From a virus, in the IMG/VR virus record IMGVR_UViG_3300045283_000039, positions 1-44,950 of that record: DNA of 44,950 nt; one strand, given 5' to 3'. The translations under genes and the position numbers were made by a program. The notes beneath the pieces were generated by a model. That model was not told the DNA's origin. It saw only the letters and a list, made by a program, of their open reading frames with translations, and searched no databases. Shown one piece after another: positions 7,087 through 28,683 of the stretch. The number at the start of each line of letters is the position of its first letter. Position 1 is the stretch's first letter.

Positions 7087-7120
7087 CGGCTAGCCTTATA
7101 ACACAACTTGCCTTTTTTGT

Positions 7121-8076: not shown

Positions 8077-8078
8077 AG

Positions 8079-8405
8079 CTATGGACAGCTTTCAGTCTGC
8101 GGCACGACATTCGCAATACCCGCTCCCCCGGATGTCACTTTTAACAGAGTGCCGTCAAAATGCAGTTTGGTTATATTAACTAGTGTGGTTGTGCCGTCTG
8201 TTACTGTGATCTTACCAAAAGCGCTGCCGCTATTGCCATCTTCCCCAAGATTAACATCATAAGTAGTGCCTTCCCCTTGACGCTCACTAAGAAGTATATC
8301 CTTACCTTGTAATCCGCGAATAGTAAGGATGAATTGGGCTTGTTGTTGTAAGAACAATTTGACTGCCTTCCAAGTAAATTTTTGTGGTAGCTCTGGAAAC
8401 TCCAT
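8079..8405 (-). CDS. Tail tip hypothetical protein
   Basis: This 108-aa protein has a helical N-terminus (FTWKAVKLFLQQQAQFILTI) and a beta-rich C-terminal half (AFGKITVTDGTTTLVNITKL, GGAGIANVV). It is 1-2 bp from its neighbours and co-directional with them. The gene order, after the tape measure and a 292-aa tail gene, suggests a minor tail structural role. No family recognised. Confidence 0.6.
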   Translation of the reverse strand: MEFPELPQKFTWKAVKLFLQQQAQFILTIRGLQGKDILLSERQGEGTTYDVNLGEDGNSGSAFGKITVTDGTTTLVNITKLHFDGTLLKVTSGGAGIANVVPQTESCP

Positions 8406-9287: not shown

Positions 9288-11129
9288 TTATGCTCCAAAT
9301 ACCCTATCAAACAAGGTAGTCATACCTGACATTGTTAAAGGATCATTGGGAGTAGGAGTCGGCCCCGGAGAAGGTCTTGCACTAGGCATCGCGGGAACAG
9401 TACTCGCTCCCGCTGGCTCCGGTTGATTTTGTATTTGCTGCCAGCGCTCATCGAAATCTCGTGGATCAACCCAAGGCGCTTTGGACATTTGATGTGCTAG
9501 TCCGTAATCATGTACCTGCGCCTTAGTCGTAAACCTGCTAGTATCATAAGGCTTGCGGTCAATGAAATCGCTTATTGATCGTCCTGCTTCCAGCCCCGGC
9601 CCTTGCGATCCTTCTACTTGCCCTGTTGGATACCATGCCCCGCGCCAATCCGTGCCTGCCCTGCCGCCAGCACCCGGCGCACTCGCTCGGTCGGCTTCCA
9701 TCGCTGCTCTTTGTTTTTCTCTGCGTGCTGCGAGTTCCGAACTACTGGCTCCTACCGGCCCGGCCATTAACTCGTCGAATGGCGTAATTTGCTTATCATC
9801 CTTACTGGCGATTGCAGCCTTAATCCGCCTGAATGGATCGTACTCAGGATTGCGAAATTCCGGGGCTTCAACCATGCCGGAAGCATAACCCAACCGTGAA
9901 GCCGCTCTTTGCGCTGCTTGATATTGGGCTTGTCGTTGTCGTAATTGCTGCGCTGGATCAATTTGTTCCTCTTGAGTGTAATCCTCAAGCTGGCTACCAC
10001 GAGCCTCTGCTACGCCCGCCTGCGCCGTCGCTGCGCCTGCCTGTGCGTGAGTTAGCCTGACTTGCGCTGCTGCCTTCTGTTCTTCGCTTAAATCCTTTGT
10101 TGCCTCTACCTGATCTTGTGCGGCTAATAGTTCATTTTGTGCCGCTGCAACCCTTTCCTTTGCTAAAGCTATCGACAACTGATCGCGTGTTAGACCTTCC
10201 TTGCTAAGATTGGCGATGCGTAATTGTATTTGAGCGTTGCTTTGGTGTAGCTGTGCCTCGCGATCAACGGCATCCTGTGTCTTGGTTACTTTTTCCAGTA
10301 TGTCGCCATGCAATTTATCTTCAGCCCGTTGCCCTGCTAACACCTTGGCCTGTCCGCGCTCATCCGTCTGAGCTATTTGCTCTGACAATATAGCCGCAGT
10401 TTCTTTGTGCCTGATTTCTTCCTGATCTAATTGTGCTTGTCGTTCGCTCACATTAAATCTGTCATGCTCGATTTTAGCGGTTTCGCTTGTTTTATCGGCA
10501 ATCTTACTTATTTCTTCGCGAGCGGACTGAAGCGCTTTCTCTCTATCTTCTGTTAGTCCCGACTTGTATGCTCCGGGTGTTTGTCCATGCAATGCCGCAT
10601 CTCTTAACAAAGCCACTCCCCCGGCTACATTACCAGCTACACTACCACTTGTTGTTGAGTAACCGGCTATCTTGGCATGTAGATCATCGGCCAGCTTGAT
10701 TGATTGTTCGAAATTTGAGCGCATTTTATCTATGCCTTCAAATCCGCCTGCCTTGCTAGATTCTGTTCGCACCGCTCCGATAGCGGTTTCCAGCTTCAAC
10801 GCTTCTTCGTGGGCATCGGCAAATCTCTCTACAATCGTCGTGATCGCGCCGATAACAGCACCCCCGACTATCCCTACTGATAGCGCTCGTCCAAAGGCTG
10901 TAACGCCTTCTACAGCGCCGCGTGCGGAATCCCCTGTAGCTGTTAATCCTTCAGCCAGCGCTGTTATGGCTCTAGCGCCGCGACGTTCGCCTAGTGGCTC
11001 TAAGGCGAATAACTTGGAAAAACCTTGTGCATGTCTTTGGGCGTGCCTAGATAAATCTTCCAACCCCTCTTTAACTGGCTTGCCGTCTAAGCTGGTTGAG
11101 TAATGGATTGTGCCGCCGCGATCAGCCAT
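9288..11129 (-). CDS. Tail tape measure protein
   Basis: This 613-aa protein is largely helical. A hydrophobic segment spans about residues 85-100 (LSVGIVGGAVIGAITTIV), and long Gln/Ala/Glu-rich coiled coils run from about 205 to 410 (EREEISKIADKTSE-type, AKERVAAAQNELLAAQDQVE). A proline-rich tail (RPSPGPTPTPNDP) follows. Helical content, size and place after the frameshifted chaperone pair fit a tape measure. By the family rule of about 1.5 angstrom per residue, the tail would be roughly 90 nm. It overlaps the preceding gene by 8 bp. Confidence 0.85.
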   Translation of the reverse strand: MADRGGTIHYSTSLDGKPVKEGLEDLSRHAQRHAQGFSKLFALEPLGERRGARAITALAEGLTATGDSARGAVEGVTAFGRALSVGIVGGAVIGAITTIVERFADAHEEALKLETAIGAVRTESSKAGGFEGIDKMRSNFEQSIKLADDLHAKIAGYSTTSGSVAGNVAGGVALLRDAALHGQTPGAYKSGLTEDREKALQSAREEISKIADKTSETAKIEHDRFNVSERQAQLDQEEIRHKETAAILSEQIAQTDERGQAKVLAGQRAEDKLHGDILEKVTKTQDAVDREAQLHQSNAQIQLRIANLSKEGLTRDQLSIALAKERVAAAQNELLAAQDQVEATKDLSEEQKAAAQVRLTHAQAGAATAQAGVAEARGSQLEDYTQEEQIDPAQQLRQRQAQYQAAQRAASRLGYASGMVEAPEFRNPEYDPFRRIKAAIASKDDKQITPFDELMAGPVGASSSELAARREKQRAAMEADRASAPGAGGRAGTDWRGAWYPTGQVEGSQGPGLEAGRSISDFIDRKPYDTSRFTTKAQVHDYGLAHQMSKAPWVDPRDFDERWQQIQNQPEPAGASTVPAMPSARPSPGPTPTPNDPLTMSGMTTLFDRVFGA

Positions 11130-11817
11130 CTTGTGTTATCTCGACTCCGGGATATTTTTTGGCGATTGCCTGCAAATCCTTGAACACGCCGTGGCTCAGG
11201 TTTGTAAGATAAAATTGCACGCGCCCGTCTATGGCTCTTTGTAAAGCCTGTGCGCCGCCGATAGCGTTTACGGTTGGTTGGCTGTTATCAAACTCTATTC
11301 CTATCTTGCCGTTCTCGCGAAATGATCTTGCGGTTTCGTCATTAGGGTATGTTTTGCCAGTCCTAGCCACTGCCTTCTTGACATAACTAGGAGCATCCAC
11401 GCTTAACCCAAGCATTTGCCCGATCCTATACCAGCTTTGTTTTGCCAGCCCGCGTGCAGCGATCCTAACCGCAACGTCTCGTGCTCGTGCCGCCTGTATC
11501 GCGCTCCATAACTCATTCGGGTAATTATAGGATAAATTGTAGAGTATCCTTACGCGGCCTGAGAAATCTGCGGACTTCGATTTAATTACCCCGCGATGTT
11601 TCGGCGTGTAAAGTGTTATCGGCTGTAGTGAGAATTTGGCGTTGGCGCTATGACTGCGAATCTTGCCTACGTCCGCTGCATCCGTGTTCTCGATTGCCTT
11701 GCTGAGTATCTTGCCGGTTTCTTCACGCATAACCGTGTCATCCGGCGCGTTCAGCTTCCTAGCCAGTTCTTCGTTTACTTGAACGAAGTTTGTTACATCT
11801 ACGTCAACCCGCATCAT
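11122..11817 (-). CDS. Tail hypothetical protein between chaperone and tape measure
   Basis: This 231-aa, basic, mixed alpha/beta protein may start at 11817 or at the next codon (MM). The ATG overlaps the TGA of the -1 frame tail-chaperone extension (ATGA), so it is translationally coupled to it. A segment such as ITLYTPKHRGVIKSKSADF is beta-like, and RDVAVRIAARGLAKQSWYRI is helical. The position suggests a tail assembly or morphogenesis role. Family unrecognised. Confidence 0.65.
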   Translation of the reverse strand: MMRVDVDVTNFVQVNEELARKLNAPDDTVMREETGKILSKAIENTDAADVGKIRSHSANAKFSLQPITLYTPKHRGVIKSKSADFSGRVRILYNLSYNYPNELWSAIQAARARDVAVRIAARGLAKQSWYRIGQMLGLSVDAPSYVKKAVARTGKTYPNDETARSFRENGKIGIEFDNSQPTVNAIGGAQALQRAIDGRVQFYLTNLSHGVFKDLQAIAKKYPGVEITQDG

Positions 11818-12029
11818 AGGATCGTTTTCGATCCCTTGGATTGATTTAGCTTGAGTGTGGGAATGCGCTTATGAACAAGCAGCCACTCGTTTTGATATTG
11901 GAGCGCTCGCGCGTAAGGCATCCTTGATAGTATGTATGTTTCATCCTTGCCGCTCATTTGATGCACCTTGGCTATTAAGGAAGTCCAGTTACTCGGCCAA
12001 ACTATTTCGTTGTCGCTTTCCTCTCCGTT
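11814..12029 (-). CDS. Tail-assembly chaperone extension, -1 frame (gpT-like part of G-T)
   Basis: This is a 71-codon frame with no early start codon of its own. It is open from within the A9 run of gene 12002-12475 and stops at 11814, overlapping the next ATG. If ribosomes slip -1 on A AAA AAA (12035-12029), K149 of the upstream protein is followed by NGEESDNEIVWPSNW and so on, giving a 220-aa fusion. The extension contains plausible protein sequence (LSRMPYARALQYQNEWLL). Position directly before the tape-measure region matches lambda G/GT. The site and frame are seen; frameshifting itself is inferred. Confidence 0.75.
   Translation of the reverse strand, partial: NGEESDNEIVWPSNWTSLIAKVHQMSGKDETYILSRMPYARALQYQNEWLLVHKRIPTLKLNQSKGSKTIL
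11819..11834. promoter_or_regulatory. Hairpin GGATCG-N4-CGATCC
   Basis: This 6-bp perfect stem with a 4-nt loop lies at the end of the frameshift extension, just before the ATG at 11817. Its layout (ATCG-N4-CGAT) resembles the dispersed palindrome but with different outer bases. It might affect ribosome coupling. Weak evidence. Confidence 0.35.
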
Positions 12030-12475
12030 TTTTTTTCGGTTCCTTCAGGCTCACCGTATGCCGCGAACACTTCATCCATTATCGTGTTAAACACGCGATA
12101 GGCTTCCCGGAAGTTCTTTTGCAGCTTGCTAGCCATCTTGTGCTCTATCGCCCACTTGATAGCGGCTTTGTTAGCCTGAACCGGGTTACGCCTAGCTCCA
12201 TTCACTTCTTCTACATCCTTTAAGCTGCACAACCATACCACTATAACTGTGTCAGCTTCCATTCCGGGATACGTGTTATCCTCGCTTAACTGCTTGGCTT
12301 GTGCCTTGGTGAGCCTGCCGTAACGCAAGCCAATAGCATCAGCAGCCCACATGCGCTCAATCGTGTATGGCTCTAGCTCTAGCCCGTTGAGAGAATGAGC
12401 AGTGCTCTCGATGAATGACTTGGTTGGAGTCATCTCGCTGCCTTCGTCTGTCTCGAATCCTGTTTGTTTCTTCAT
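12002..12475 (-). CDS. Tail assembly chaperone (gpG-like), 0 frame
   Basis: This 157-aa, mostly helical protein (QANKAAIKWAIEHKMASKLQ, REAYRVFNTIMDEVFAAYG) ends in a Lys/Glu-rich tail, EGTEKKTERKATTK. The K148-K149 codons form the slippery heptamer A AAA AAA within an A9 run (12028-12036). Normal termination gives the short form, and a -1 slip gives the G-T-like long form. In lambda and many siphoviruses this pair loads the tape measure and the tail tube protein. Similarity to known chaperones is by layout, not clear sequence. The start overlaps the previous stop. Confidence 0.75.
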   Translation of the reverse strand: MKKQTGFETDEGSEMTPTKSFIESTAHSLNGLELEPYTIERMWAADAIGLRYGRLTKAQAKQLSEDNTYPGMEADTVIVVWLCSLKDVEEVNGARRNPVQANKAAIKWAIEHKMASKLQKNFREAYRVFNTIMDEVFAAYGEPEGTEKKTERKATTK

Positions 12476-13083
12476 ACGCCTAGCGCCTTCCTCGTTTCTT
12501 CGCTGGCGTTCACTGAGATGATCTTCATACCGGGACTTGTTATTGCTATGGCTTCTCGTGGCCCATCCTTTGTCTGTATTACTTCGCGCGAGCGTGTTAC
12601 GCGGCCCGGATTAGGAATGATGTAGCGTGGCACTTGATGCGTCCACAACTCCATAAAGTCCATTCGTTTTTGCAGGATCACACAATACAGCCTTACCTTG
12701 GCTATATCCGGATCAGGCCCATTTACTTTAGCCGCAAGCTCTGACACTAGCTCGTGCAGAAATCCATCCCTACTCTCAAGCTCTGCCACCTGATCGCGGT
12801 ATGCCTTAAGTAACTTACTTAGACGCGGAACACGCTCTAGGATAAATTCGACATGGCCGCGCCTGCCGGTCTTGTGGGCGTGTTTTACCGCTTCCTCAAG
12901 TTCCCAACCCTTATAGTATGGGCTACCTGAGCCATTCATAAACTTGTCCAGAATAGGCTTGGAGTAAAACACCTTGCACGGATACCTGTCATTGTGCCAA
13001 GGAACTCCGGCTAGGTGCAGGGAATACGCGAGAATTGCGTTTGATGTATTAAAGGGCGTGTCGCCCGGCTTTATGTTTTTCAT
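12472..13083 (-). CDS. Probable tail structural protein (hypothetical)
   Basis: This 203-aa protein starts at ATG 13083, which overlaps the HNH gene stop (ATGA). A longer start at 13149 would overlap the HNH C-terminus by about 70 bp. It contains VPWHNDRYPCKVFYSKPILDKF near the N-terminus and a charged helical middle (LSKLLKAYRDQVAELESRD). It lies just before the tail chaperone pair, where a tail tube or terminator gene would be expected, but I do not recognise the sequence. Confidence 0.6.
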   Translation of the reverse strand: MKNIKPGDTPFNTSNAILAYSLHLAGVPWHNDRYPCKVFYSKPILDKFMNGSGSPYYKGWELEEAVKHAHKTGRRGHVEFILERVPRLSKLLKAYRDQVAELESRDGFLHELVSELAAKVNGPDPDIAKVRLYCVILQKRMDFMELWTHQVPRYIIPNPGRVTRSREVIQTKDGPREAIAITSPGMKIISVNASEETRKALGV

Positions 13084-13619
13084 ATACGATTTCCCTTGCT
13101 TGCGTTTTCTCTTTGCCACATTGGTTGAAGATTGGAATAATGAAAGCATTTTTTCTGCTCTGTGGAGTTCCGTAAGTTAAACATGGAGCACGGTAATCGG
13201 TGATCTATTTCCCAACCACCCCTACCGTAGTTACTCCATGACATTCCGGCCTTGAATTGTCTGGATAAATGCTTCTTTAATTGATTGGCGGAACAACCAA
13301 TGAGTTTAATTGTGCTGCTAATCTTAGTGGCGCGCGCCCGCCTAACAGCATGTCTTATGCGCGACCTTAAGCTATCCAGTAATTGGTTTCGCGTGTGTTT
13401 CTTGCGAGTGTTAACCTTATGCCGATTACGCATTGTCCACCAAGCAGCCGATGCTATTTTGGCAAACGGGTAATTAAAATAATTATTCCTGCTTTTATTA
13501 TTCAGGCAAGGCTTGCATCCTGCCCTAAATCCACTCGGCTTGTTTCGATCACGTTGAAAGTGTCTAGCCGTCTCTGGCTTATAGCGCCCGCATGTCGGGC
13601 ATCGTCTTAATTTAATCAT
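13080..13619 (-). CDS. HNH endonuclease (zinc-finger type)
   Basis: Starting at ATG 13619, this 179-aa protein begins MIKLRRCPTCGRYKPETARH with CxxC pairs (C7/C10 and C35/C38). It continues with a very basic stretch (RHKVNTRKKHTRNQLLDSL) and ends in an HNH core: WEIDHRLPCSMFNL, then KCFHYSNLQPMWQRENASKG. The first histidine (DH) and the NLQPMW block are diagnostic. Such free-standing HNH genes in structural modules are often homing endonucleases. An upstream in-frame ATG at 13709 is possible but runs into the preceding membrane gene. Confidence 0.85.
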   Translation of the reverse strand: MIKLRRCPTCGRYKPETARHFQRDRNKPSGFRAGCKPCLNNKSRNNYFNYPFAKIASAAWWTMRNRHKVNTRKKHTRNQLLDSLRSRIRHAVRRARATKISSTIKLIGCSANQLKKHLSRQFKAGMSWSNYGRGGWEIDHRLPCSMFNLRNSTEQKKCFHYSNLQPMWQRENASKGNRI

Positions 13620-18312: not shown

Positions 18313-19395
18313 TTATGAGTACTGTGTCGCGATTAAATCTCCGCAGCGTGTGTTGCCGATGTAAGGCGTGCTGCTCAACTTGAGCCGTAGCACCTGACTG
18401 TCGATCTTGCGCTCGTAGTAGGATTCAACGTAGTTGCCACCGGCGAACGATTCGGTATCGCCTTCGTCTGAGGGTACGCCGCCACTTGCCCAATTCTCCC
18501 AATAGGCGTTTACTCCCACGCCACCAAGAATCGGCACGCCGATGCCGCCCGACACGTCTTTCTCACGGTTGGTTTCTTGATCTGTCCCGATGCCTTTTGC
18601 CATGCCGGGCCGCCCCAACCAAATGTAAGTAACACTCCAAAGCTGTGTTAGCACTGGCGTAGCGCCGTCCGCCGCGCTGTTATAGTAACCGTCACCCACG
18701 AGAATCTTGTTAATGCCGAACTCTTGCACGGCTTGTTCAATCATGTTGTGTGTGGCTTCCTGCCCGGCGCGCAGTGTGCCTACAACGTAAGCTTGCACGG
18801 TTGTAGCCCTGCGGACACGCTCGAACACAATACCGCTCATAGCGGCTACGTATGGCGGCGGCTCACCCTTGGCCTTTACGCGCCGACTGGACGCGATCAA
18901 GTCAGCGATCAGGCTGATCGTGGCGATGTTAGCCTCAGTGTAAGCAACTGTGCTATTTGTCGCTGAGCCGAAGTTGCCGGTGTTGAAGATTTGCGCGGCG
19001 GTCAAGTACTCCTTTGTTAGTCCGCTAAACTCGTTACCGAATCGGGCAGCGTAAAACGCTTCCAAGTCAGCATAGCCAGCGTAATCCAAGCTGACTTCGT
19101 TAGGCACGACAATCTCAACGCCGCGAAGCGTCACCGTAAACGTGTCGTCACCTAGCTTGGCTACGACTCGTTCAAAGTTGGTGCCGGGCGCGCGGACATA
19201 CTTAGGAGACGCGATGTGTCGCAATCCTTGAGTATCGGCCAGTGTCGCCTTGATTAAGTGCGCTGTGCGCCGGTTGATCGGGAAGTCAGGTAGAATTTGG
19301 TCGCCGATCAGACCGCCGATAGCACCCTCGCCTTCGACAACGGCAAGCGCTAATTCTGCCCTCGGCAACGTGGTTGAAATATCAAATAATGGCAT
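18313..19395 (-). CDS. Major capsid protein (gpE-like)
   Basis: This 360-aa protein begins MPLFDISTTLPRAELALAVV and shows the extended N-arm plus mixed alpha/beta body typical of lambda-type or HK97-fold capsids. Segments include FTVTLRGVEIVVPNEVSLDY, AQIFNTGNFGS and SSRRVKAKGEPPPYVAAMSG. The C-terminal part (SYYERKIDSQVLRLK, CGDLIATQYS) resembles gpE-family ends. It lies directly after a 121-aa decoration protein and a protease-scaffold gene, the expected order. The fold assignment rests on synteny and general features. Confidence 0.85.
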   Translation of the reverse strand: MPLFDISTTLPRAELALAVVEGEGAIGGLIGDQILPDFPINRRTAHLIKATLADTQGLRHIASPKYVRAPGTNFERVVAKLGDDTFTVTLRGVEIVVPNEVSLDYAGYADLEAFYAARFGNEFSGLTKEYLTAAQIFNTGNFGSATNSTVAYTEANIATISLIADLIASSRRVKAKGEPPPYVAAMSGIVFERVRRATTVQAYVVGTLRAGQEATHNMIEQAVQEFGINKILVGDGYYNSAADGATPVLTQLWSVTYIWLGRPGMAKGIGTDQETNREKDVSGGIGVPILGGVGVNAYWENWASGGVPSDEGDTESFAGGNYVESYYERKIDSQVLRLKLSSTPYIGNTRCGDLIATQYS

Positions 19396-19421: not shown

Positions 19422-19787
19422 CTATACACCCAACTCTACTTCCCCAAGCACTCCGTCGCCTGTGGCTGCCAACGTCCACTTGCCTAGCAAGGTTGCGTTG
19501 GTGCTGGTTTTTGAAAACTTGCCTGCGGCTGCTGAGTAAGCTGGATCGCCTACCGCTACCGCCTCAGATGCCAGCGCTGGCACCTTGCCGCCGCCGTGCA
19601 TGTTAACAGCCGCGCCGGTCTTAGCTGCCTCGATTGATTGAAGCGTAACGTATTCTCCCAACACTGTAGCATCGCCTGCATCACATACACCCGCTGAAGT
19701 AAGCGAGACACGAATACCGCGCGCTAGAGCGCCGTTTGCCGTAATTGTTACCGGACTGATCGCCCGGTATGTTGCCATTTCTGCCAT
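19422..19787 (-). CDS. Capsid decoration protein (DUF2190-like)
   Basis: This 121-aa, beta-rich, Ala/Gly-rich protein (AISPVTITANGALARGIRVSL; GEYVTLQSIEAAKTGAAVNM; GKWTLAATGDGVLGEVELGV) matches the look of DUF2190 capsid cement proteins that trimerise on the capsid surface. A GGAG-like site precedes the ATG by 9 bp (CGGAGTAACTAATT). The order decoration then major capsid is as in lambda D-E. Confidence 0.8.
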   Translation of the reverse strand: MAEMATYRAISPVTITANGALARGIRVSLTSAGVCDAGDATVLGEYVTLQSIEAAKTGAAVNMHGGGKVPALASEAVAVGDPAYSAAAGKFSKTSTNATLLGKWTLAATGDGVLGEVELGV

Positions 19788-19813: not shown

Positions 19814-20308
19814 TTACTTCTTTACCATTTGTTGCTTGTTAGGATGCTGTTTGTCCATGAAAGCGTTGTAAGCCGCTGGATGATCTTGTCGGACGCGGTT
19901 GATTGCCGTTCCCCGGTTCTTCGCGCCGTTCTTCATCTGTGTGTCCACCAGCTTCTCGAAGTCGTCATCGCCCTTGCCTGTCTCGACATCAGCAGAAATT
20001 TTAGCGGGCTTGCCGCCGACAGCGCGGAAGAATTGCATGTTGGATTGTGCGACAAGCTGAGAGAACTCTTTGCCGCTCATCTCGCTGATCTTTTTCTCGC
20101 CCATCTCCTGCGATGCTCGATAAGTGGACATCTTTTCTTCCTTGGTTTTGTCGTCATCCTCATCGGTGATGCCTGCCGCTTTCTTCTCGTCATCCGTGGC
20201 ATCGGCAAAGCCAACTTTCTTAACAGGCGGCGCTATCATCGGCGCGAAAAACTTTTTCAGGTCAGGAAGGATTGCTTCAGCTAGTTGTTTAACATCTTCG
20301 GGTTTCAT
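19814..20308 (-). CDS. Nested scaffold protein (internal in-frame start)
   Basis: Codon 188 of the protease-scaffold gene is ATG at 20308, preceded by GGAG with a 6-nt spacer (CGGAGCTAACC-ATG), one of the best Shine-Dalgarno matches I see here. It would produce 164 aa, MKPEDVKQLAEAILPDLKKF..., rich in Lys/Asp/Glu and helical. This copies the lambda C/Nu3 arrangement, where the scaffold is translated from within the protease gene. Start and site are seen; use is inferred. Confidence 0.6.
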   Translation of the reverse strand: MKPEDVKQLAEAILPDLKKFFAPMIAPPVKKVGFADATDDEKKAAGITDEDDDKTKEEKMSTYRASQEMGEKKISEMSGKEFSQLVAQSNMQFFRAVGGKPAKISADVETGKGDDDFEKLVDTQMKNGAKNRGTAINRVRQDHPAAYNAFMDKQHPNKQQMVKK

Positions 20309-20869
20309 GGTTAGCTCCGTTGTTTCATCGCTGTCGGTTGTATGTTGGTTTTGATTAGTTGTCAAATCTTTGTTATCCCCTACCGCGAACAATCCGGTTG
20401 GGTTAGCTGCGGGTAAATCAACTATTTGCGCTAGATAAATTTCTGAGCAGCGCGCGAATTTCTGGCCTTTGATTTCTTCGTCGTCGCCGGTGAACTCGAT
20501 ACTCAGCCCGATGTTACCCGGAGTTTCTTCAGCCATCTCGTATAGATATTCTTTGATGTTTTCCGGGTAAGACCTGTAGAGATGTAAGTCGCCAACGGTC
20601 TTATCATCCTCGATGCGAATTGTGTTAGCAGGTATCCTACCTGCCATACCTGCCGGGCCATGAGTGAATGTCTCAGGATTGAATTTAACCCGCAAGCCGT
20701 CTTTGTAAGTCTTGGCGCAATCCCTAACGCTTTCCAGCGTCTTTTGGTCACATAGCTTGTTATGACCCTTCGCTTCGCCTAGCGCGATGAGAGAGACACC
20801 CTTAATGATTCCTTTGGCGCGATCTACGCGGCTGCCATTCAGGTTAAGGCGAGAAACAAACTTAATCAC
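19814..20869 (-). CDS. Capsid maturation protease fused to scaffold domain
   Basis: In this 351-aa protein, residues about 15-165 form a compact alpha/beta domain (GIIKGVSLIALGEAKGHNK; TFTHGPAGMAGRIP; GNIGLSIEF) with candidate catalytic H70 and S123. This pattern is seen in phage head maturation proteases. After a polar linker (TTNQNQHTTDSDETTE), the C-terminal part is charged and helical, as in scaffolds. An internal ATG with a strong ribosome site may make the scaffold alone. The ATG overlaps the previous stop. The catalytic residues are inferred. Confidence 0.7.
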   Translation of the reverse strand: MIKFVSRLNLNGSRVDRAKGIIKGVSLIALGEAKGHNKLCDQKTLESVRDCAKTYKDGLRVKFNPETFTHGPAGMAGRIPANTIRIEDDKTVGDLHLYRSYPENIKEYLYEMAEETPGNIGLSIEFTGDDEEIKGQKFARCSEIYLAQIVDLPAANPTGLFAVGDNKDLTTNQNQHTTDSDETTELTMKPEDVKQLAEAILPDLKKFFAPMIAPPVKKVGFADATDDEKKAAGITDEDDDKTKEEKMSTYRASQEMGEKKISEMSGKEFSQLVAQSNMQFFRAVGGKPAKISADVETGKGDDDFEKLVDTQMKNGAKNRGTAINRVRQDHPAAYNAFMDKQHPNKQQMVKK

Positions 20870-21072
20870 TTCATGTTATCTTTTTTGGTGATCTTGTTTT
20901 TCAAGTTATTCGTTTTTACGACCTTTTGATTTTGTTGTCCAGATTTATTTTTGCCATTCGTATCGCCAGCGATACCTTTGGATTTAGTTAAGCAATCTTT
21001 GAGCGCTTGGTTGCCGGTGTCGGCTATACCATCTTCCATTGAACCATATAGTTTTTCTAGGTCGGCACTCAT
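20866..21072 (-). CDS. Small hydrophilic protein carrying the palindrome peptide
   Basis: In this 68-aa protein, the N-terminal half is acidic (MSADLEKLYGSMEDGIADTG) and the C-terminal half is Lys/Asn-rich (NGKNKSGQQNQKVVKTNNLK). Residues 33-37 (IAGDT) come from palindrome copy 6. It overlaps both neighbours by 4 bp, between portal and protease. Possibly an assembly cofactor; unrecognised. Confidence 0.55.
   Translation of the reverse strand: MSADLEKLYGSMEDGIADTGNQALKDCLTKSKGIAGDTNGKNKSGQQNQKVVKTNNLKNKITKKDNMK
20960..20975. repeat. Dispersed palindrome copy 6 (in CDS)
   Basis: GTATCG-CCAG-CGATAC lies inside gene 20866-21072. The minus strand encodes G-I-A-G-D-T. Confidence 0.9.
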
Positions 21073-24000
21073 TTGTTTCTATTTGTTATCTTCACAGCGC
21101 TCTTAACATTTGGATTTCTGCTTAACTCATTGTAAGTCGCTTCGGGCTTACCGTCAACGCCGTTGAGTTGGAATCCGGGATCGACAAAGCGATGAACGAT
21201 TTTCCCGTTAGATGCTTCGCCCTTCAGGTAGCGCTCCCACGTACGGTGTATTGCCTCGTGCTGTGGAGCGTCCACGTAAACAACATGAACGTCATAACCA
21301 TTCTTGGTTAATAACTCAGCGCGAGCCGACATCTTATCTTTGTTGCTTCCGGTTTCATCCATTAAAATGTTGTGATGATTTGATACCGCCTTGCTAATCG
21401 CTTCGTAGTATATCTCCTTTGATTCAGCTTGTGTAGCTGGCGCATTCCATCCCTCGTTCTCTGGCAACTCCGCTCGTATGTCGTCAGGATTTAATTTAGT
21501 AAATTCGCCAAGTTGTTTAACTCGCTCGCCGCCAGCCGTAGTCTTGCCAGCGCCCGGCCTACCCATGAGTAACACGGCTTTTGGGCGTTCGCCCTCCGGC
21601 GTGACCGCATTTGGATTCATTAACCCACTAATAATCTTCTCATGTAACTCCTGACGCTCCGGTGTTAATTGTCCAGTAGCTAATGCGTTTTTAGCAAGCG
21701 ACCAATCCTCAAGCGATGTAGCCCTGCCTATAGCTTTTGAGTAATCCTTGAGAACAGGATCGCTAGCTAGCTTGTCAGTCCTGTCCTGTAATGATTTATA
21801 TTCCGGGGTTTGCTTAAGATCGGCAACGTAGCGTGATGTGTCGCTGTCATCCTTGGGTGGGTCTATCTTATTCCTGTTATCGTGAACGCCTTGCCATTGA
21901 ATTTGTCGGTAATGTCCACGATTTGGATATTGCTTTTCGTAGCCTTGGATGATCGAGTCGTAGTTTTTGGCTGCGCCTTCTCTTGTGTCGCTTTCTCCGA
22001 CGAACTCGCCTGTTCCCCGGACGCTACTGACATTGATGCCTTCCCATTTGTCTTTGATGTCGCCATATTGTTTTGCTACAAGAGCTAAGTTGTTACTAAG
22101 CTTGTTATCTTGATCGTAAATAATTATATGCGTAACTGAGCCATCTGGCAACAAGGTTCTGTGAGTAATTCCAGCCGTGTCCAGCCTGTCTCTAATATCT
22201 TTTAAGTTACTCGATGGTAAGGTAACAGCATGAATTGCATCCTTGCCCTTGTCATCAGCTTTGAAGGCTAGCACCGCTTTTTGATTGAGCGCCTTACCCT
22301 TTATCGCGGCTGAATAGCGTAACTCATCCCAATCATTCACATTAGACATTTCGTGAACTACGCTGTTTTCAGCGCCGTCGCTCCAATCGCCAATACCGTC
22401 GTATGATGCGCCTTTGATACCTAGCTGCTTGTCTATATCGTCGGTGATAGACCTTGCTTGGTGCTGCCCATCGCCGTGCATTGCTTTGATGGCACCAGCG
22501 AAGTCCATTTCGGCAGTGTTAGGAGAATACATCTCAGCGCTCGGAGATGGTGGCTCATGCGCCTTTTTAATTAACTGTCCGTTTCCGCCCTCGCTCGGAT
22601 GCACATAACCCGGCTCTAATGATCCTTTGCCTTCGTCCGTCCATTTGCCCGTTTGATCGCGTTGCTGAGACTTGCCTGATTCAGCGTCGAACTGTTGGGA
22701 TAGCTTTGTTTCTTTGTCCGGCATTTCCAATACATGGGCTTCAATTTCCTTATCTCCGCGTTTAGCCGCTGCCGCTAGCGCGTGGTGGCCGTCCATAACA
22801 AAATACTTGTCGCCGTAATGCACGACATAAATCTTTTTGATATTATCTTCTTTAATGTTGCGCTTAACTTTGGTTTTATTTACCACCGGCTGAGTAGCTA
22901 TTAAGCCCTTGATTGGTAAAGTTCCGACCGGCTGATCTTTGAATAATTTATGTCGAGCGTCAGTGTATTCCTTAATGCCTATTATCTCTGGATCGGGAGT
23001 GCCCTGTAGTTTGTTAAGCTGATCGAAGAACGGTGTTTTGGAATACATGACGTAATGTATTCCCGGTATGTGTTTGCGGACACTAACAACATCTTTAGCT
23101 TCGCGTGATAGCGGCCTGTGGTGCGGATGAACGTCAACAAGACGCTTATCTAACCCCTTTAAGCCTACTACGTCTGGATGTTCGTAGCCCGGCTCGCCAG
23201 CGCCCTTACCTTCGTCAGCGAATTTACCACCCTGATCCCGTAGTTGATCAGGATTGTAAAAGATTTCTATGTCGCCCTGATCCGTTGAGATGGATAGAGA
23301 TTGATGGTCGTTTTTTTTTGAGCCGTTAGTTAGTGCGAAGTTATTACCCTCGCCATTACCATTCCCGCCTTCATCGTTCAAATCAACGCCTTCGTCTGTA
23401 GCGCCAGCCTGATCCCGGTTGGTGTTATCTTTGACTTGTTGCCCGGCATTCAGTGCGGCCTGCATGGTGCTGCCGCGTCCGCGCGGCGGCGGATTCATAA
23501 ACGCATACACTTGCTCCCACGGCACGTTAAGGCGCTTGCCTACTTCCATTGCGGCCTCGATCATTTCCTCTGTCTCGTGCGCCCCTTGGGTAATAACGTC
23601 CGTAACATCCCCTAGCCCTGCGTCAGCTACTACTTTGGCCCTTGTGTTCATCGTAGCACCGACTTCCTCAATGTTAGCCTCTGACTCGCGGCCCACGTCG
23701 ATTGTGGGTTTAGCAGGAAAGAACCAATCCCATTGCTGCCATTTGGGATGATAAGGCAACTCTCCCTTGGCGATGGCGTTACCAAGTATAACCATGATAA
23801 CCTGATCCAGTTTCTGTTCGCGTAGCATCTCCTGCCAAATCTGAATCGCTCGCGCATCCTGAGCCGATGCCATTCTCACGCCCGGCCCGGTAAGCCCTGT
23901 CATGTTGTAGCCAAATTGCAGGGTAATTCCCGCTCCGTTACAGATGTCTAACACTGTGTTTTCGTACATCCCAATCACGTTAGGACTTGGCCGGTCGTGT

Positions 24001-25037
24001 TGAAACATCTCTACCTTCTCGCCTTCAGATGACAGCCCTATTAGTGTGTTAGGGCGAGTCTCGTATGTGTCGATGTAATTACCATCTCTGTCTTGTAACC
24101 TGTTTCGGTTAAAAGGCAGTGATTCAGGCAGCCCGCCTGACTTCGTATAATATACTCCGCTCTGTGATGCCGCCCACAGTAATGCTTGTAGCTCGTATTC
24201 TCGCATCCGGCTGATGTATGTATCGTTGTCGATTGCGGTCTTGAATAAACTCACACCCCTGTAATCATCATAGCTAATCGGGTTAGCGAAGAATAGAAAC
24301 TTTGGCAGACCTGTTTCTGGATCGCGCATTGGATATTCGTCATCGAATCTGTAAAACCCGCTGCTTTTATCCTGATAGTAAACCATAGCGGATATGATGC
24401 GGCCCGTTTTAGGATCAAGCCTGAGTCCGCGCACATACCGCGAATTAGTAAGATACTTGTAAGGATCGCCGATCCTGTTAGCCTCGATACCCTGAAGATA
24501 GATGTCGTCATCCTCGGTTACAATGTTCGTGCCAACATCGCCTTTAAGCGCGATGCTTTTTATGTCCAACATGCACTGTTGACGTAACGAGAACCTGCCG
24601 CCGATGTCGATGTTACCCGGCTTGGTTGTCTTTTCCCGAATGTATTGCTGGTATTGTTGGTTGACGTTCTTGTTGCCGGTCTTAGCCTGCCAAGTCAGTG
24701 TGCCGCAGACGTATGTAGGAAACTTGATAAGGATACCTGAGCACAGCCCGGAGTTGTCAACCATGTCGATTGCATTCCACATCACCTGTAACTTCTCGCG
24801 TTGGATACGTAGCCATTCACCAGCCGTGGTAGGGCTTGAGTTAGTCCGGGCGCTAGTTGGTTGCGCTGCGAGATACCGAAAGTAGTTAGCCTTCTCGCGG
24901 TTAACCATCCGGTTGAGCGCTAGCTTGGTTGAGGCCAATCCTAGCGCACTATCGATCCGGCTCTCCCACTTTGTAGGCTTGTAAGGCTGATATTCCTTAC
25001 CGCGAGTGTCATCAGAGACTTCTATGCGCGCTGGCAT
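21069..25037 (-). CDS. Portal protein fused to ParB-like and zeta-kinase-like domains (polyvalent)
   Basis: This protein is 1322 aa, where a lambda-type portal is usually about 500-550. Residues 1-520 are portal (KWESRIDSALGLASTKLALN; GVRMASAQDARAIQIWQEML). Three linker repeats follow: RDQAGATDEG at 541, and RDQxGKxxDEGKGxxEPGYxHP at 600 and 793. Residues about 705-770 look ParB/sulfiredoxin-like (IYVVHYGDKYFVMDGHHALA). Residues about 860-1040 are an unassigned domain. Residues about 1150-1285 are zeta-toxin-like, with Walker A GRPGAGKTT at 1159-1167 and LNPDDIRAE after it. Polyvalent phage proteins of this kind are described. Injection with DNA is inference. Confidence 0.85.
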   Translation of the reverse strand: MPARIEVSDDTRGKEYQPYKPTKWESRIDSALGLASTKLALNRMVNREKANYFRYLAAQPTSARTNSSPTTAGEWLRIQREKLQVMWNAIDMVDNSGLCSGILIKFPTYVCGTLTWQAKTGNKNVNQQYQQYIREKTTKPGNIDIGGRFSLRQQCMLDIKSIALKGDVGTNIVTEDDDIYLQGIEANRIGDPYKYLTNSRYVRGLRLDPKTGRIISAMVYYQDKSSGFYRFDDEYPMRDPETGLPKFLFFANPISYDDYRGVSLFKTAIDNDTYISRMREYELQALLWAASQSGVYYTKSGGLPESLPFNRNRLQDRDGNYIDTYETRPNTLIGLSSEGEKVEMFQHDRPSPNVIGMYENTVLDICNGAGITLQFGYNMTGLTGPGVRMASAQDARAIQIWQEMLREQKLDQVIMVILGNAIAKGELPYHPKWQQWDWFFPAKPTIDVGRESEANIEEVGATMNTRAKVVADAGLGDVTDVITQGAHETEEMIEAAMEVGKRLNVPWEQVYAFMNPPPRGRGSTMQAALNAGQQVKDNTNRDQAGATDEGVDLNDEGGNGNGEGNNFALTNGSKKNDHQSLSISTDQGDIEIFYNPDQLRDQGGKFADEGKGAGEPGYEHPDVVGLKGLDKRLVDVHPHHRPLSREAKDVVSVRKHIPGIHYVMYSKTPFFDQLNKLQGTPDPEIIGIKEYTDARHKLFKDQPVGTLPIKGLIATQPVVNKTKVKRNIKEDNIKKIYVVHYGDKYFVMDGHHALAAAAKRGDKEIEAHVLEMPDKETKLSQQFDAESGKSQQRDQTGKWTDEGKGSLEPGYVHPSEGGNGQLIKKAHEPPSPSAEMYSPNTAEMDFAGAIKAMHGDGQHQARSITDDIDKQLGIKGASYDGIGDWSDGAENSVVHEMSNVNDWDELRYSAAIKGKALNQKAVLAFKADDKGKDAIHAVTLPSSNLKDIRDRLDTAGITHRTLLPDGSVTHIIIYDQDNKLSNNLALVAKQYGDIKDKWEGINVSSVRGTGEFVGESDTREGAAKNYDSIIQGYEKQYPNRGHYRQIQWQGVHDNRNKIDPPKDDSDTSRYVADLKQTPEYKSLQDRTDKLASDPVLKDYSKAIGRATSLEDWSLAKNALATGQLTPERQELHEKIISGLMNPNAVTPEGERPKAVLLMGRPGAGKTTAGGERVKQLGEFTKLNPDDIRAELPENEGWNAPATQAESKEIYYEAISKAVSNHHNILMDETGSNKDKMSARAELLTKNGYDVHVVYVDAPQHEAIHRTWERYLKGEASNGKIVHRFVDPGFQLNGVDGKPEATYNELSRNPNVKSAVKITNRNK
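23311..23319 (-). promoter_or_regulatory. In-frame A9 slippery run inside the portal fusion
   Basis: On the minus strand, A AAA AAA is in frame at S573-K574-K575, just after the portal domain. A -1 slip would add 21 residues (KRPSISIHLNGSGRH...) and stop, yielding an approximately 596-aa portal without the ParB and kinase parts. No downstream stimulator was identified. Confidence 0.35.
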
Positions 25038-25038
25038 G

Positions 25039-25308
25039 TTAAGCTACCCTGCCACTGAATTGTCGATCAGTCCTGACAATAACCTGAGCGCTCTGTTTGA
25101 TGGTGCCATTAGTGAAGCCAATAGCGATGCGTAACAAGCTTAGCATGTTACGAATCTCAGCTAACTCGGCGCGTGTGATTGACCAGCCGGGGAAGGCGTT
25201 GCTCTTGCCTGTCTTTAACACGTCATCTTCGGCCTGTAAACAAAGCGCACGCTTTGCTAGTAACTCATCCATAGACAAGCCGATATAAGGATTATCGCTA
25301 AGTGCCAT
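25039..25308 (-). CDS. Head-tail joining protein (gpW-like position)
   Basis: This 89-aa protein (GLSMDELLAKRALCLQAEDD; ITRAELAEIRNMLSLLRIAI) is mostly helical with a terminal strand, RTDRQFSGRVA. It lies one base from the portal start and after the packaging genes, the gpW place in lambda order A-W-B. The fold is inferred from size, helices and synteny. A terminator and a leader sequence shared with gene 25658-25891 lie upstream. Confidence 0.6.
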   Translation of the reverse strand: MALSDNPYIGLSMDELLAKRALCLQAEDDVLKTGKSNAFPGWSITRAELAEIRNMLSLLRIAIGFTNGTIKQSAQVIVRTDRQFSGRVA

Positions 25309-25353
25309 GACTGGACAACCAATATCTCCTAGCGGTTGAGTTGTCTAGGTAAA
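25309..25353 (-). promoter_or_regulatory. Leader similar to that of gene 25658-25891
   Basis: On the minus strand, CCTAGACAAC is followed by an AGG-GATATTG block and then CCAGTCATG. The leader before ATG 25891 has CCTAGACAAC, then AAGGCGATATTG and CCAATCATG. The two leaders look duplicated. AGGAGA or AAGGCG could be the ribosome site despite long spacing. Confidence 0.4.
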
Positions 25354-25381
25354 AAGAAAAAGCACGCCGTTTCTGACGTGC
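25351..25381 (-). terminator. Intrinsic terminator before the portal operon
   Basis: The stem GCACGTC/GGCGTGC (one G-T pair; 25362-25381) with a 6-nt loop is followed on the minus strand by TTTTTCTTTTT. It lies in the gap between genes 25402-25656 and 25039-25308 and should end the short transcript from 26.07 kb. Confidence 0.8.
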
Positions 25382-25401
25382 CTTTCTTTATTTGATTTTG
25401 G

Positions 25402-25656
25402 TTAGCTCTTGGCTGAAGCCGGGCCGGGCGGCTGTGGGATACGTGCCTTGGCTGCGACAACCGCATCCTTTGCGGTGCCGATATTTGCCAATGCTTTCCC
25501 TACAATGTCATCCTCGGCAGCCAAATCGATCACTGGCTGTAACGCGATAAAAGCGTCAACTGCCGCGATGTAATCTGTGTCTGCCGCGATGTAATCTGCT
25601 TGTGCAGCCTGCTCTGTAGCCAAGTCTGCATCGAACTTTTCTCTTGATACTCCCAT
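25402..25656 (-). CDS. Ala-rich helical small protein
   Basis: This 84-aa protein (DADLATEQAAQADYIAADTD; IGTAKDAVVAAKARIPQPPG) is alanine-rich, amphipathic and acidic. It is separated from the next gene upstream by one base and followed by a terminator. Function unknown. Confidence 0.55.
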   Translation of the reverse strand: MGVSREKFDADLATEQAAQADYIAADTDYIAAVDAFIALQPVIDLAAEDDIVGKALANIGTAKDAVVAAKARIPQPPGPASAKS

Positions 25657-25657
25657 G

Positions 25658-25891
25658 TTATTTTTCCTTTCCTTGGTTTACTGCTGAATGTGGAATGCGA
25701 ATCTTTGCCGACTTAACTGCCTTGGTAGCAGCCTTAGCTTCTCTAGTTTCTCTCCGCACACTGGCATCCTCTTTAGCGAAATCGTCAGACCTGCCTAACA
25801 GGATGTCTAACTTGTGATCCATTGACTTGAGTATATCTATTACCTTGCGGCGAAAGGTAGATGGTGCGCCTGTAGCTGGCATGATTGGCAA
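25658..25891 (-). CDS. Small charged protein with coiled-coil character
   Basis: This 77-aa protein has a Pro/Ala N-terminus (MPIMPATGAPSTFRRKVIDI), a helical middle (LKSMDHKLDILLGRSDDFAK) and a Lys/Ala-rich end (KAATKAVKSAKIRIPHS). Its ATG follows a leader shared with the gpW-like gene. Unknown function; same transcript as the Ala-rich gene. Confidence 0.5.
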   Translation of the reverse strand: MPIMPATGAPSTFRRKVIDILKSMDHKLDILLGRSDDFAKEDASVRRETREAKAATKAVKSAKIRIPHSAVNQGKEK

Positions 25892-25927
25892 TATCGCCTT
25901 GGCCGTGAAGGTTGTCTAGGATTGAAT

Positions 25928-26074
25928 CTAACCCCGTAAAAATTCTCGGCGCGCTAGTCGGGCTATTCTCATTTTTTTAGCCCATTGCTTTTTCTGTTTA
26001 GCGACACGCCTAAATGCTGCCTTAGCTGATTTTGTTTTCCACCACTTTGATAGCATGATTTCTGTATTGTTCAT
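25928..26074 (-). CDS. 48-aa highly basic protein
   Basis: MNNTEIMLSKWWKTKSAKAA continues in a run of Lys, Arg and Gln (FRRVAKQKKQWAKKMRIARL). About a third of residues are K or R. It could bind DNA or RNA. The start follows an AT-rich stretch with a TATATT box 10 bp upstream. No family. Coding is likely because the frame is clean and fills the gap. Confidence 0.55.
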   Translation of the reverse strand: MNNTEIMLSKWWKTKSAKAAFRRVAKQKKQWAKKMRIARLARREFLRG

Positions 26075-26207
26075 ACAGTAATATACCAAATTCGATTTGT
26101 GGTTTCTGCCAAAACCATTGAATTTGACGCTTATCGGGAGAAAACTACCTAGCTAAAATCTTTTTGGAAAAAATCGTTTGACGCGATTTTAGGAATTTCC
26201 AGAAAGC
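26075..26207 (-). promoter_or_regulatory. AT-rich promoter/terminator region
   Basis: This region lies between gene 26223-26744 and the 48-aa gene. Minus-strand features are a palindrome copy just upstream, a stem AAAATCG/CGATTTT (26170-26190) followed by T residues, and TATATT near the ATG at 26074. A transcript probably ends and another starts here. No strong -35 is found at 16-18 bp. Confidence 0.4.
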
Positions 26208-26223: not shown

Positions 26224-26744
26224 TATTTGAGTTTAGCTAATTCCGCCGCGAGCATAAACACTGTGCCTGACTGATGGGCCGTCATTCTCGCGCACTCACG
26301 TAATGTCAGGCGTTTAGCTCGACTGTCGGGAATAGCTCTCGTGACAACCCTAGGATATGGTATGCCACGATACGTGCGGCCATTATCGGGAATACTAAGC
26401 AGTCCGTCACCGTTTTTTAACAATGGCATTACTTTATTTACTAGTCCTGATGGCACAAAGAAATAAAACAGCTTCGGGCAATTCAACGTGCTTAACCAAT
26501 TTGTGTGCGAAAACATTGTGTATCTCCGCTCGAATGCTTCCATTTTTTTCGTGTTAGCCTTGAAGTCTGACAATGAACGCTTGATTTCAACTTCGATAGC
26601 CCATCGATCCTTAGTTACTCCCATTACATCCGGCGACCCGCCGCGACAAATACCGCGCTCAACCGCCACGATTGGACACTGGCGCTCGTACCTAAGCCAT
26701 TGCAATGCCGCCGCGCGGTAAAACCAAATGCTATTCGTTTCCAT
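26223..26744 (-). CDS. PD-(D/E)XK-type nuclease (MmcB-like)
   Basis: This 173-aa protein contains SPDVMGVTKDRWAIEVEIKR, where an acidic D is followed by E-x-K (EIK) as in PD-(D/E)XK nucleases, with preceding CRGG. The region KANTKKMEAFERRYTMF is basic. It overlaps the end of TerL by 14 bp and so belongs to the packaging operon. It could act in DNA repair, resolution of branched DNA before packaging, or processing. The motif is seen; the substrate is unknown. Confidence 0.7.
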   Translation of the reverse strand: METNSIWFYRAAALQWLRYERQCPIVAVERGICRGGSPDVMGVTKDRWAIEVEIKRSLSDFKANTKKMEAFERRYTMFSHTNWLSTLNCPKLFYFFVPSGLVNKVMPLLKNGDGLLSIPDNGRTYRGIPYPRVVTRAIPDSRAKRLTLRECARMTAHQSGTVFMLAAELAKLK

Positions 26745-28683
26745 TAGTGCTTTCCGGCTGCCAGTCGGATAGATCGATGAGACGTTGTAGCGCCATCGCT
26801 ACCAAGATCATGCACTCAATATCCCATGCGTGGTTAGGACGCTTAGTACCGGTGCCCTTGGCGTTGGTATTGCTCCACCAATCAGTGCGTCGTCCGCGAG
26901 CACTGATAATTGTATGACGTGTTTCTGAATTGAGTTGTCGAATATACTCCGCGCCAGCGTCAGAAGGAATGCCCCAATAAATCGCTGTGCCTTGCTTGAA
27001 AGCGCTGAGTAGGTTCTTGATATGTAAATTGATCCAATCGAATCTACGGGCCAACCTGATCGCAGGGCCACGCCTTCCCATGCGTCTGTTGATCTGTTGT
27101 TGCTCCGTTCCTGTGAATGGATCAGCCCATTGCTCTGCTGAGTATGGCAACTCGATTGCTATGCGCTTAATCATCTGCGTCCGTGGATCGACAATCTCCT
27201 GCATGTGCTTGAATGGCTCGCGATCCACGCCGCGCATACACGTCCAGCCGCGTTTTGCCGCTTGCGCGTAAACTTCTCTCGTTTCAAATGAACTATCGAT
27301 TAACACTGAATCTTCAGCTACGCCGAACTCTTTAGCCTTGGCCTCAATCTCATCGTAACTAGACAAGCAATCACTCTCGCTGACTCCGCGATCTATCAGC
27401 CTGCTTTCGCCGTTAGCCCGGCACGCGCGAACAACAAAGGGATAGCCCCATTCCTGTTTGTCGTTGCCCATGAATCGGATCGTCTCGTTTTCCCACTGGC
27501 TCTTGATATAGATATTTGGTGAACCAATAGCGTAATCAGAAGCGATTGTGCGTTGCCGGGATACAATGTGTCTGGACTCATCCCATGCTTCAGTTTGTCG
27601 GCGTGTCCAGAACTGGCGCAATGGCTCAACGTTGCCGTAGCGCCTGAACTGTTGCACAGACTGAAGAAACTCTGTCACCCATTGCCCCCATGTTATGCCC
27701 GGCCAGTTCACGCTTAACACATTAAATCTGTAACTGTCGTGCCAGTCCGGTGCATCGAAATTTGTTTGAACATAAAGCGCGGATTGGTTTAGGTCGCGCC
27801 GCGATCTGGCGGTATCTGGATAATCAGTGTTACAATGAGCGCAGGTGTATCTCACCGTCTTGATTACTTCTTTTAAGTCCCACTCTTTGTTACCCGGCTT
27901 AGTTTTACTGTCGCGCTCCCATGTCAAGCCGCCGCGCTGCTTAGGTTTGCCCCATGCCGGGATTTGTTTACGCCCACACTTCAAGCATCGCCAACTCCAT
28001 TCGTGTTGTGATCCTGATTTCCAGAGTAAATCAAAGTCATCTCCGTCAACGCCCGGTATGCTGCCATTCCAGACCTTGTAATTCCACGCATACGATACAT
28101 TGCAACGCTTGTGGGCCACGGCTAAGCGACCTACCGGCCATTGCCAGCACTCATCATTGAACTGAGTTTGTATGGATTTTTCTTCGAGATTACTCTCCGC
28201 GCATCCCTGAATCTTGAACGGCATACCATCCGAGAAGATCACGCTTTGAATACGCGACTTGTGATGATCTGCCGGAAGTTTGTCAACAACCGCATCGCAG
28301 CTACGAGCGGCAGACCACCAACGTTGCTCGGCAAATTCTCGCGCGGCCTCATCCTTGTAGGTATTCCATTGCATAGGGCCGGGCCTATTAACGATTGCCC
28401 ATAGACTACCGCCTTCCATTGCTTTAGTTCGCCCACCTTGAGTTGGGCCGACTGTTGTAACCATCCGTTTTTCTTCGTTCTGCCATGATTCCAGTGGAGC
28501 ACGAAGTTGCGGAGTGTTATCAACATCGTATGGGCCTTGGATCGGCGAAGTCGTATCGAGACTTACATTATCAAACAACCAATCGGTTATCGGTTGCTCG
28601 CTTGGTTTGCGGATCGCTTCAGCGCACTTGCGATCCAACCAACTCCAATCGGTATCGTTGGCGATACGCTTAGTTGCTGGCAT
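26731..28683 (-). CDS. terL: Terminase large subunit (gpA-like)
   Basis: This 650-aa protein carries a variant Walker A (GPTQGGRTK at 79-87) and a zinc-finger-like pair (CLKCGRK; CAHCNTD). The nuclease half has SVLIDSSFETREVYAQ and a later PNHAWDIECMILVAMAL. Layout and length match the lambda gpA family, the packaging motor that also cuts DNA. The N-terminal RIANDT comes from a palindrome copy, so it is probably a tolerated insertion. It overlaps the upstream DUF4031 gene by 14 bp. Confidence 0.9.
   Translation of the reverse strand: MPATKRIANDTDWSWLDRKCAEAIRKPSEQPITDWLFDNVSLDTTSPIQGPYDVDNTPQLRAPLESWQNEEKRMVTTVGPTQGGRTKAMEGGSLWAIVNRPGPMQWNTYKDEAAREFAEQRWWSAARSCDAVVDKLPADHHKSRIQSVIFSDGMPFKIQGCAESNLEEKSIQTQFNDECWQWPVGRLAVAHKRCNVSYAWNYKVWNGSIPGVDGDDFDLLWKSGSQHEWSWRCLKCGRKQIPAWGKPKQRGGLTWERDSKTKPGNKEWDLKEVIKTVRYTCAHCNTDYPDTARSRRDLNQSALYVQTNFDAPDWHDSYRFNVLSVNWPGITWGQWVTEFLQSVQQFRRYGNVEPLRQFWTRRQTEAWDESRHIVSRQRTIASDYAIGSPNIYIKSQWENETIRFMGNDKQEWGYPFVVRACRANGESRLIDRGVSESDCLSSYDEIEAKAKEFGVAEDSVLIDSSFETREVYAQAAKRGWTCMRGVDREPFKHMQEIVDPRTQMIKRIAIELPYSAEQWADPFTGTEQQQINRRMGRRGPAIRLARRFDWINLHIKNLLSAFKQGTAIYWGIPSDAGAEYIRQLNSETRHTIISARGRRTDWWSNTNAKGTGTKRPNHAWDIECMILVAMALQRLIDLSDWQPESTNGNE
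28652..28667. repeat. Dispersed palindrome copy 8 (in terL)
   Basis: GTATCG-TTGG-CGATAC lies at codons 6-11 of terL. The minus strand encodes R-I-A-N-D-T. Confidence 0.9.

Follow-up and report, generated by a model that had tools for sequence, protein, structure and literature searches.

The window analysed here is the whole 44,950-nucleotide stretch of IMG/VR virus record IMGVR_UViG_3300045283_000039, and all of its features described below lie on the minus strand. At 21069..25037, a single open reading frame of 1322 aa, without an internal stop, begins with a portal domain and continues into a string of C-terminal effector modules: a tag, a ParB/sulfiredoxin-fold module, a second tag, a module that we call SAM-lyase-like, and a zeta-family kinase. 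A sequence-only reading had given the correct coordinates for this gene, and its calls of a portal, a ParB-like domain, a zeta-like kinase, repeat linkers, and an unknown domain all stand. The gene belongs to a head-gene block that runs from the terminase large subunit (26731..28683; PHROG 15, 4.2e-41) through the portal, a 351-aa head protein (19814..20869), and a head decoration/scaffold-type protein (19422..19787; PHROG 673/122) to the major capsid protein (18313..19395; PHROG 1005, 3.8e-15), the usual order, which is common to the viral contigs L002, L003, L007, and L014. The 351-aa protein, conserved 3' of the portal and with an invariant His and Ser, is a candidate prohead protease or scaffold; family searches for a prohead protease gave no match, and its position matches that of the Clp-protease-like gp10 in phage P8625. 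Upstream of the portal, some 1.1 kb (25039-26089) leading to a 173-aa ORF holds small ORFs of 89, 84, 77, and 53 aa. A search of the C-terminal part of the portal gene for an in-frame internal start with a ribosome-binding site, from which free effectors could be made, turned up none that was convincing. Among isolated phages, Verrucomicrobia phage P8625 stands nearest, with 22% identity in the terminase large subunit, a likeness that gives a hint only of the host. The genome contigs searched for a host contained no relatives of either the portal or the capsid.

The first 545 residues (23403..25037) constitute a lambda-type portal domain, assigned from Pfam, PHROG, and its relatives. Pfam Phage_portal_2 (PF05136) matches aa 89-402 (E 1.6e-12; 47.7 bits against a curated cut-off of 32.9) and PHROG 21, a portal family, matches the protein at 8.9e-25, so that two profile matches and the gene position bear out the initial call. 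Scans with the whole protein, a portal alignment, and a terminase large subunit alignment identified five related phages that share these head genes. The portal domain is 70-75% identical to those of L002 and L003 and ends at a conserved GATDEG motif; the portals of the related phages agree up to GATD(D/E)G, or a close variant of it, and then diverge. On L015 the portal is bare, a protein of 555 aa that stops at the same motif and carries no tail. On L014 (portal ORF 10892-13579) the motif is followed by the tag RDDHGRWTEGG and a type IB topoisomerase (Pfam Topoisom_I, 6e-24), and on L003/L004 by one tag, a ParB module, and a zeta kinase. The L002 portal ORF (1493 aa, 3905-8386) has two tags, a ParB module, an unassigned stretch, and a PI3/4-kinase-like domain (1.2e-7), whereas that of L007 has two tags and a ParB module and terminates after a degenerate third tag, a separate 142-aa ORF on the same contig being homologous to the L002 tail. 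Homologues of the L002 kinase region share an ORF with a SAM-lyase-like module on L044 and L081 and lie in a different ORF from it on L038. With the tail of the 1322-aa protein included, one portal family in six phages is associated with six alternative tails.

This exchange of modules settles whether the fusion is genuine. The join between portal and ParB module lies in one open frame on separate contigs (L002, L003/L004, and L007), identical joins that rule out the accidental merging of separate genes, and an assembly error cannot account for six tails behind one portal. The same comparison makes a structural necessity for the tails unlikely. The suggestion that the portal carries its modules as effectors is well supported by it, given that the portal is constant, the modules vary, and the same modules occur in polyvalent virion-type proteins.

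The modules are introduced by a short peptide. In the 1322-aa protein, tag 1 is RDQGGKFADEGKG (aa 600-612; 23202..23240) and tag 2 is RDQTGKWTDEGKG (aa 793-805; 22623..22661), recognised by motif; they precede the ParB and SAM-lyase-like modules, respectively, while the kinase has no tag directly ahead of it. The repeat linker RDQxGKxxDEGKG that was noticed in the sequence is therefore genuine but present in two copies only, at aa 600 and aa 793. Across the ORFs of the collected loci, the pattern RD..G[KRQ][FW] occurs 110 times, a count somewhat inflated because part of the loci overlap, against 1.2 in residue-shuffled ORFs, and its consensus is R-D-(E/Q/D/P)-x-G-(K/R)-(W/F)-(T/S)-x-(G/E)-G. 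Of 33 cases with a tag upstream of a SAM-lyase-like module, 27 have it 15-28 residues ahead of the first conserved residue; in 63 ORFs the module has no upstream tag. Judged by its recurrence, RDxxG(K/R)(W/F) is a general tag ahead of such modules. The two linker copies are identical at 52 of 90 bases and differ at synonymous sites, with the peptide kept, which rules out a DNA-level recombination repeat and indicates that selection acts on the peptide. The tag may act as a protease site, as a packaging signal, or as a hinge, and it may show at which points polyvalent proteins have their effectors packaged or released.

The ParB/sulfiredoxin-fold module (aa 624-773; 22719..23168), also present on L002, L003, and L007, is recognised by fold. 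Its sequence match is weak, with Pfam ParBc_2 falling under the cut-off at aa 735-771 (E 0.035), a PDB sequence search giving no match, and a search for further relatives yielding none beyond the same four contigs. An AlphaFold model of the module, built from four sequences, reached a pLDDT of 82, and its best Foldseek and VIA matches (sulfiredoxin, Noc, ParB, SerK, and SbnI) all belong to the ParB/sulfiredoxin superfamily, with sulfiredoxin at E 4e-4 and a VIA Z of 7.8 over 72 residues at 1.6 A. The ParB-like reading is upheld on these grounds. The superfamily also includes kinases, for example, SerK. The motif reads DGHHA at aa 749-753 and DGHHA, DGHHS, or NGHHR in the relatives; since three of the four copies have DGHHA or DGHHS in place of DGHHR, with a variable last position, the module may be inactive.

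The SAM-lyase-like module (aa 834-1040; 21918..22538), between the second tag and the kinase, is defined by more than 100 viral homologues, an AlphaFold model, fold matches, and a residue register. Aa 860-1040 had been flagged as not recognised, and this is correct as far as Pfam and PHROGs are concerned: peptide patterns, tblastn searches in phages and plasmids, and PHROG and Pfam comparisons with aa 815-1060 gave nothing convincing. The region is no orphan, however, an idea that was rejected once a degenerate DNA pattern for G-x-W-x-D-G-A-E-N-S/T found 112 stretches of viral contigs, with about four expected by chance on our own arithmetic; by phmmer, 106 viral ORFs resemble the module, most at E < 1e-16. 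The G-x-W-x-DGAEN-S/T domain of these loci (L017-L128) is without a Pfam model. In 97 aligned copies, G883, W885, D887, G888, A889, E890, N891, and Q919 are invariant and the position of S892 is mostly S or T. The invariance of G-x-W-x-DGAEN follows in part from collecting the copies with a pattern that contained it, so that independent conservation comes only from Q919, S838, A849, K920, F925, and R1019.

A Pfam scan of 35 module-bearing ORFs found zeta toxin in six, ART-PolyVal in five, and portal families in six (Phage_portal_3 in four, Phage_portal_2 and Phage_portal in one each), together with single cases of InPase, a 2'-5' ligase, a nucleotidyltransferase, and Acb1, a counter-defence (anti-CBASS) enzyme. 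The combinations include Phage_portal_3 with the module (L118, L090, and L054), a portal followed by InPase, a tag, and the module (L041), and ART, the module, and zeta in one protein (L050). These partners are those typical of virion-packaged polyvalent proteins (PMC5512222).

An AlphaFold2 model of the module from 67 sequences is of high confidence (pLDDT 92.5, pTM 0.89) and is of a tandem ferredoxin/PII-like fold. A Foldseek search of the PDB returned no full-length match that was convincing. VIA-align ranked the tandem ferredoxin domains of RND pumps first (Z 9.5), above the phage SAM lyases 6znb (Z 8.3; 107 residues aligned of a chain of 125, at 3.3 A) and 6zm9 (Z 8.2; 102 aligned), and the SAM-AMP lyase 9gad was matched at Z 7.0. 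In the viral library, BFVD, large proteins of phages take the first sixteen places, several of them annotated as polyvalent; small proteins the size of T3 SAMase rank after these, and two are named SAM hydrolase. Sequence homology to SAM lyases fell short of significance: hhalign of the module against an alignment of T3 SAMase with six of its relatives, taken from phage records, gave P 0.09 and a probability of 0.6%, and the score is reached in 8 of 200 column shuffles, although no shuffle aligns 100 columns. For this reason, we name the module SAM-lyase-like and do not count it among the members of the family.

The residues that this alignment brings together are nonetheless suggestive. The best hhalign alignment, its register computed without knowledge of the active site, pairs G883, W885, E890, S892, and Q919 with G55, Y57, E68, T70, and Q94 of T3 SAMase, which by pattern and spacing correspond to G56, Y58, E69, S71, and Q104 of Svi3-3, the residues that contact SAM (PMC7877911). 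Glu and Gln are the sole structurally conserved pair shared with SAM-AMP lyase, in which E71Q and Q108A reduce activity (PMC12255297). The SAM-binding pattern of G-x-Y, E-x-S, and Q is present in the module, with Trp for Tyr. Taking residue register and modelled fold together, we consider it about as likely as not that the module acts in the manner of a SAM lyase. An unrecognised domain is in this way turned into an enzyme hypothesis with named residues (E890, Q919, and W885) that covers more than 100 phage proteins.

The folds also allow another reading, in which the tail modules are structural or serve assembly only, for example, by sensing DNA or nucleotides during packaging, and stay in the particle. 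They belong to a protein of the packaging ring, and PII/ferredoxin and ParB/sulfiredoxin folds also serve as ligand sensors, PII proteins being among the VIA-align matches of the SAM-lyase-like module. We nevertheless regard this as improbable: L015 and P8625 have the same portal and head genes without the modules, relatives bear unrelated enzymes instead, and the same modules are found in large proteins with no recognised portal.

The last module, a zeta-toxin-family P-loop kinase (aa 1110-1322; 21072..21710), was assigned from Pfam and from an alignment with PezT, and here the earlier proposal of a zeta-toxin-like kinase found direct confirmation. Pfam Zeta_toxin (PF06414) matches aa 1146-1300 far above its curated cut-off (E 2e-21; 76.8 bits against 22.3). 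In the PezT alignment, the Walker A motif is GRPGAGKT (aa 1159; 21540-21563), and NPDDIR (aa 1183; 21474-21491) aligns with DGDSFR, the D-x-x-R motif, with its Asp kept. In the same alignment, IEGTLR of PezT is paired with MDETGS, which retains an acidic residue and the Thr and has Ser for the Arg of the presumed sugar site, so that the kinase may not act on UDP-GlcNAc.

With all modules described, the least probable of the alternatives can be weighed, namely, that the gene is degenerate and that unused modules have piled up by recombination at a permissive C-terminus. The low-complexity linker would fit, as would the L007 tail, which has become a short ORF of its own, and the ParB-like motif that differs among the four copies. 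Decay of this sort is very hard to reconcile with long open frames, an intact Walker A motif, invariant ligand residues in the SAM-lyase-like module, and tag peptides that are conserved despite synonymous DNA changes, and we give it hardly any weight.

A 68-aa ORF (20866..21072) overlaps the stop codon of the portal gene (ATGA) and has a homologue on L003; it is a candidate immunity or antitoxin partner. Such homologous ORFs, of 68 aa behind the 1322-aa gene and of 58 aa on L003 (6746-6922), overlap the portal stop in the zeta-type portals. ORFs of 106 and 111 aa lie behind the portals of L002 (8383-8703) and L007 (8984-9319), respectively, and are unrelated to the former, and the bare portal of L015 has no small ORF behind it. 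These candidates, changing along with the portal modules, resemble by analogy the immunity genes of polymorphic toxins. The protein might accordingly be read as a portal-based polymorphic toxin aimed at rival bacteria or phages, in the way suggested for MuF toxins, with the small ORF encoding the immunity protein. C-termini swapped behind a constant N-terminus are what such a toxin would have, small ORFs covarying with the modules and missing after a bare portal agree with it, and MuF toxins mostly have small ORFs 3' of them (PMC5576092). On the other side, Pfam shows no MuF domain, the N-terminus being a portal; topoisomerase IB and SAM-lyase-like modules are atypical as antibacterial toxins; and no antitoxin family was identified for the small ORFs, which are short and weakly related. 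We consider a toxin of this type unlikely, if somewhat less so than a role in assembly only.

The explanation that we favour, and think probable, is that the portal has a second role, anchoring a polyvalent effector string that is carried inside the virion. The first 545 residues would form the dodecameric DNA channel, and after GATDEG the RDxxG(K/R)(W/F) tags would introduce the ParB/sulfiredoxin-fold, SAM-lyase-like, and zeta-family modules. In known portals, the C-terminal crown is directed into the capsid, and the effector string should therefore sit with the DNA in the head. On infection, the string, or pieces of it cut at the tags, would reach the host cytoplasm and act before phage gene expression. 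There, the SAM-lyase-like module may destroy the SAM, or a conjugate of SAM, that restriction, BREX, or type III CRISPR signalling draws on; the kinase may phosphorylate a sugar nucleotide or another small host target; and the ParB-like module may perform NTP-dependent DNA or nucleotide chemistry. The location in the virion, delivery, cleavage, and catalysis of the tail modules are what we infer from the fusion, the confidently modelled folds, the conserved ligand residues, and the exchange of modules. Against a string in the head stands its bulk: twelve copies of an effector part of about 85 kDa amount to close to 1 MDa, which is perhaps too much for the head unless the string is cut or full-length subunits make up only part of the ring. 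A bolder form of this explanation, which we offer tentatively and believe less than the anchor itself, is that the portal is a cassette carrier: within one lineage, phages would swap virion-borne effectors behind a constant portal at RDxxG tags, which would serve as release or packaging signals. One cassette family, found in more than 100 phage proteins and on several portal types, would then be a SAM or SAM-AMP lyase made in advance and turned against restriction, BREX, or type III CRISPR signalling as soon as infection begins. Either way, six tails on one portal family are a natural experiment on the loading and changing of virion-borne effectors.

The general principle of a portal with effectors is less new than it was taken to be when the sequence was first read; it has been published. 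Polyvalent proteins were described by Iyer et al. (2017; PMC5512222), who also reported portals fused to PBECR, 2H, or InPase and fusions of zeta kinases with MuF; Nudix-portal fusions followed (Iyer et al. 2022; PMC9503650). Like the polyvalent proteins, among which ParB-like (DdrB) domains are a recurrent module, the 1322-aa protein combines several effector-type enzymatic domains in a single chain whose gene lies among those of the head. Unlike them, it belongs to one portal family with alternative tails (zeta, PI3/4-kinase-like, topoisomerase IB, and SAM-lyase-like) that share the RDxxG tag, and neither such a series of tails nor a common tag was found in the accessible text of their description. 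The open-access literature yielded no paper on the SAM-lyase-like module, which the supplement of Iyer et al. may list under another name.

Three further systems are close to ours. MuF toxins likewise have a constant virion-associated N-terminus, an exchangeable C-terminal enzyme, and often a small ORF behind (PMC5576092); here, the anchor is the portal itself, several modules stand in tandem, and toxicity and immunity are hypothetical. SAM lyases (T3 SAMase and Svi3-3; PMC7877911) and SAM-AMP lyase (PMC12255297) have a ferredoxin/PII-like fold that the modelled fold of the module may match, and their SAM-binding G-x-aromatic, E-x-S/T, and Q have conserved counterparts there in the same order. 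The module differs from them in a much shorter loop between the aromatic residue and Glu, in a second ferredoxin-like unit in the chain, and in its place in large virion-type proteins rather than in an early expressed gene. Finally, gp114 of Halovirus HCTV-5 (L016 5647-9528), with relatives in haloarchaeal tailed viruses, is a 1293-aa protein with an annotated zeta toxin and ParB nuclease, its gene lying between those of a Mu gpF-like protein and of the major capsid protein. Unlike the 1322-aa protein, it has no portal fusion, and its archaeal host is without peptidoglycan, which cannot, therefore, be the zeta target there. Set beside these systems, a protein of this general kind was known; what appears to be new is the series of tails exchanged on a single portal, the tag that they share, and the SAM-lyase-like module.
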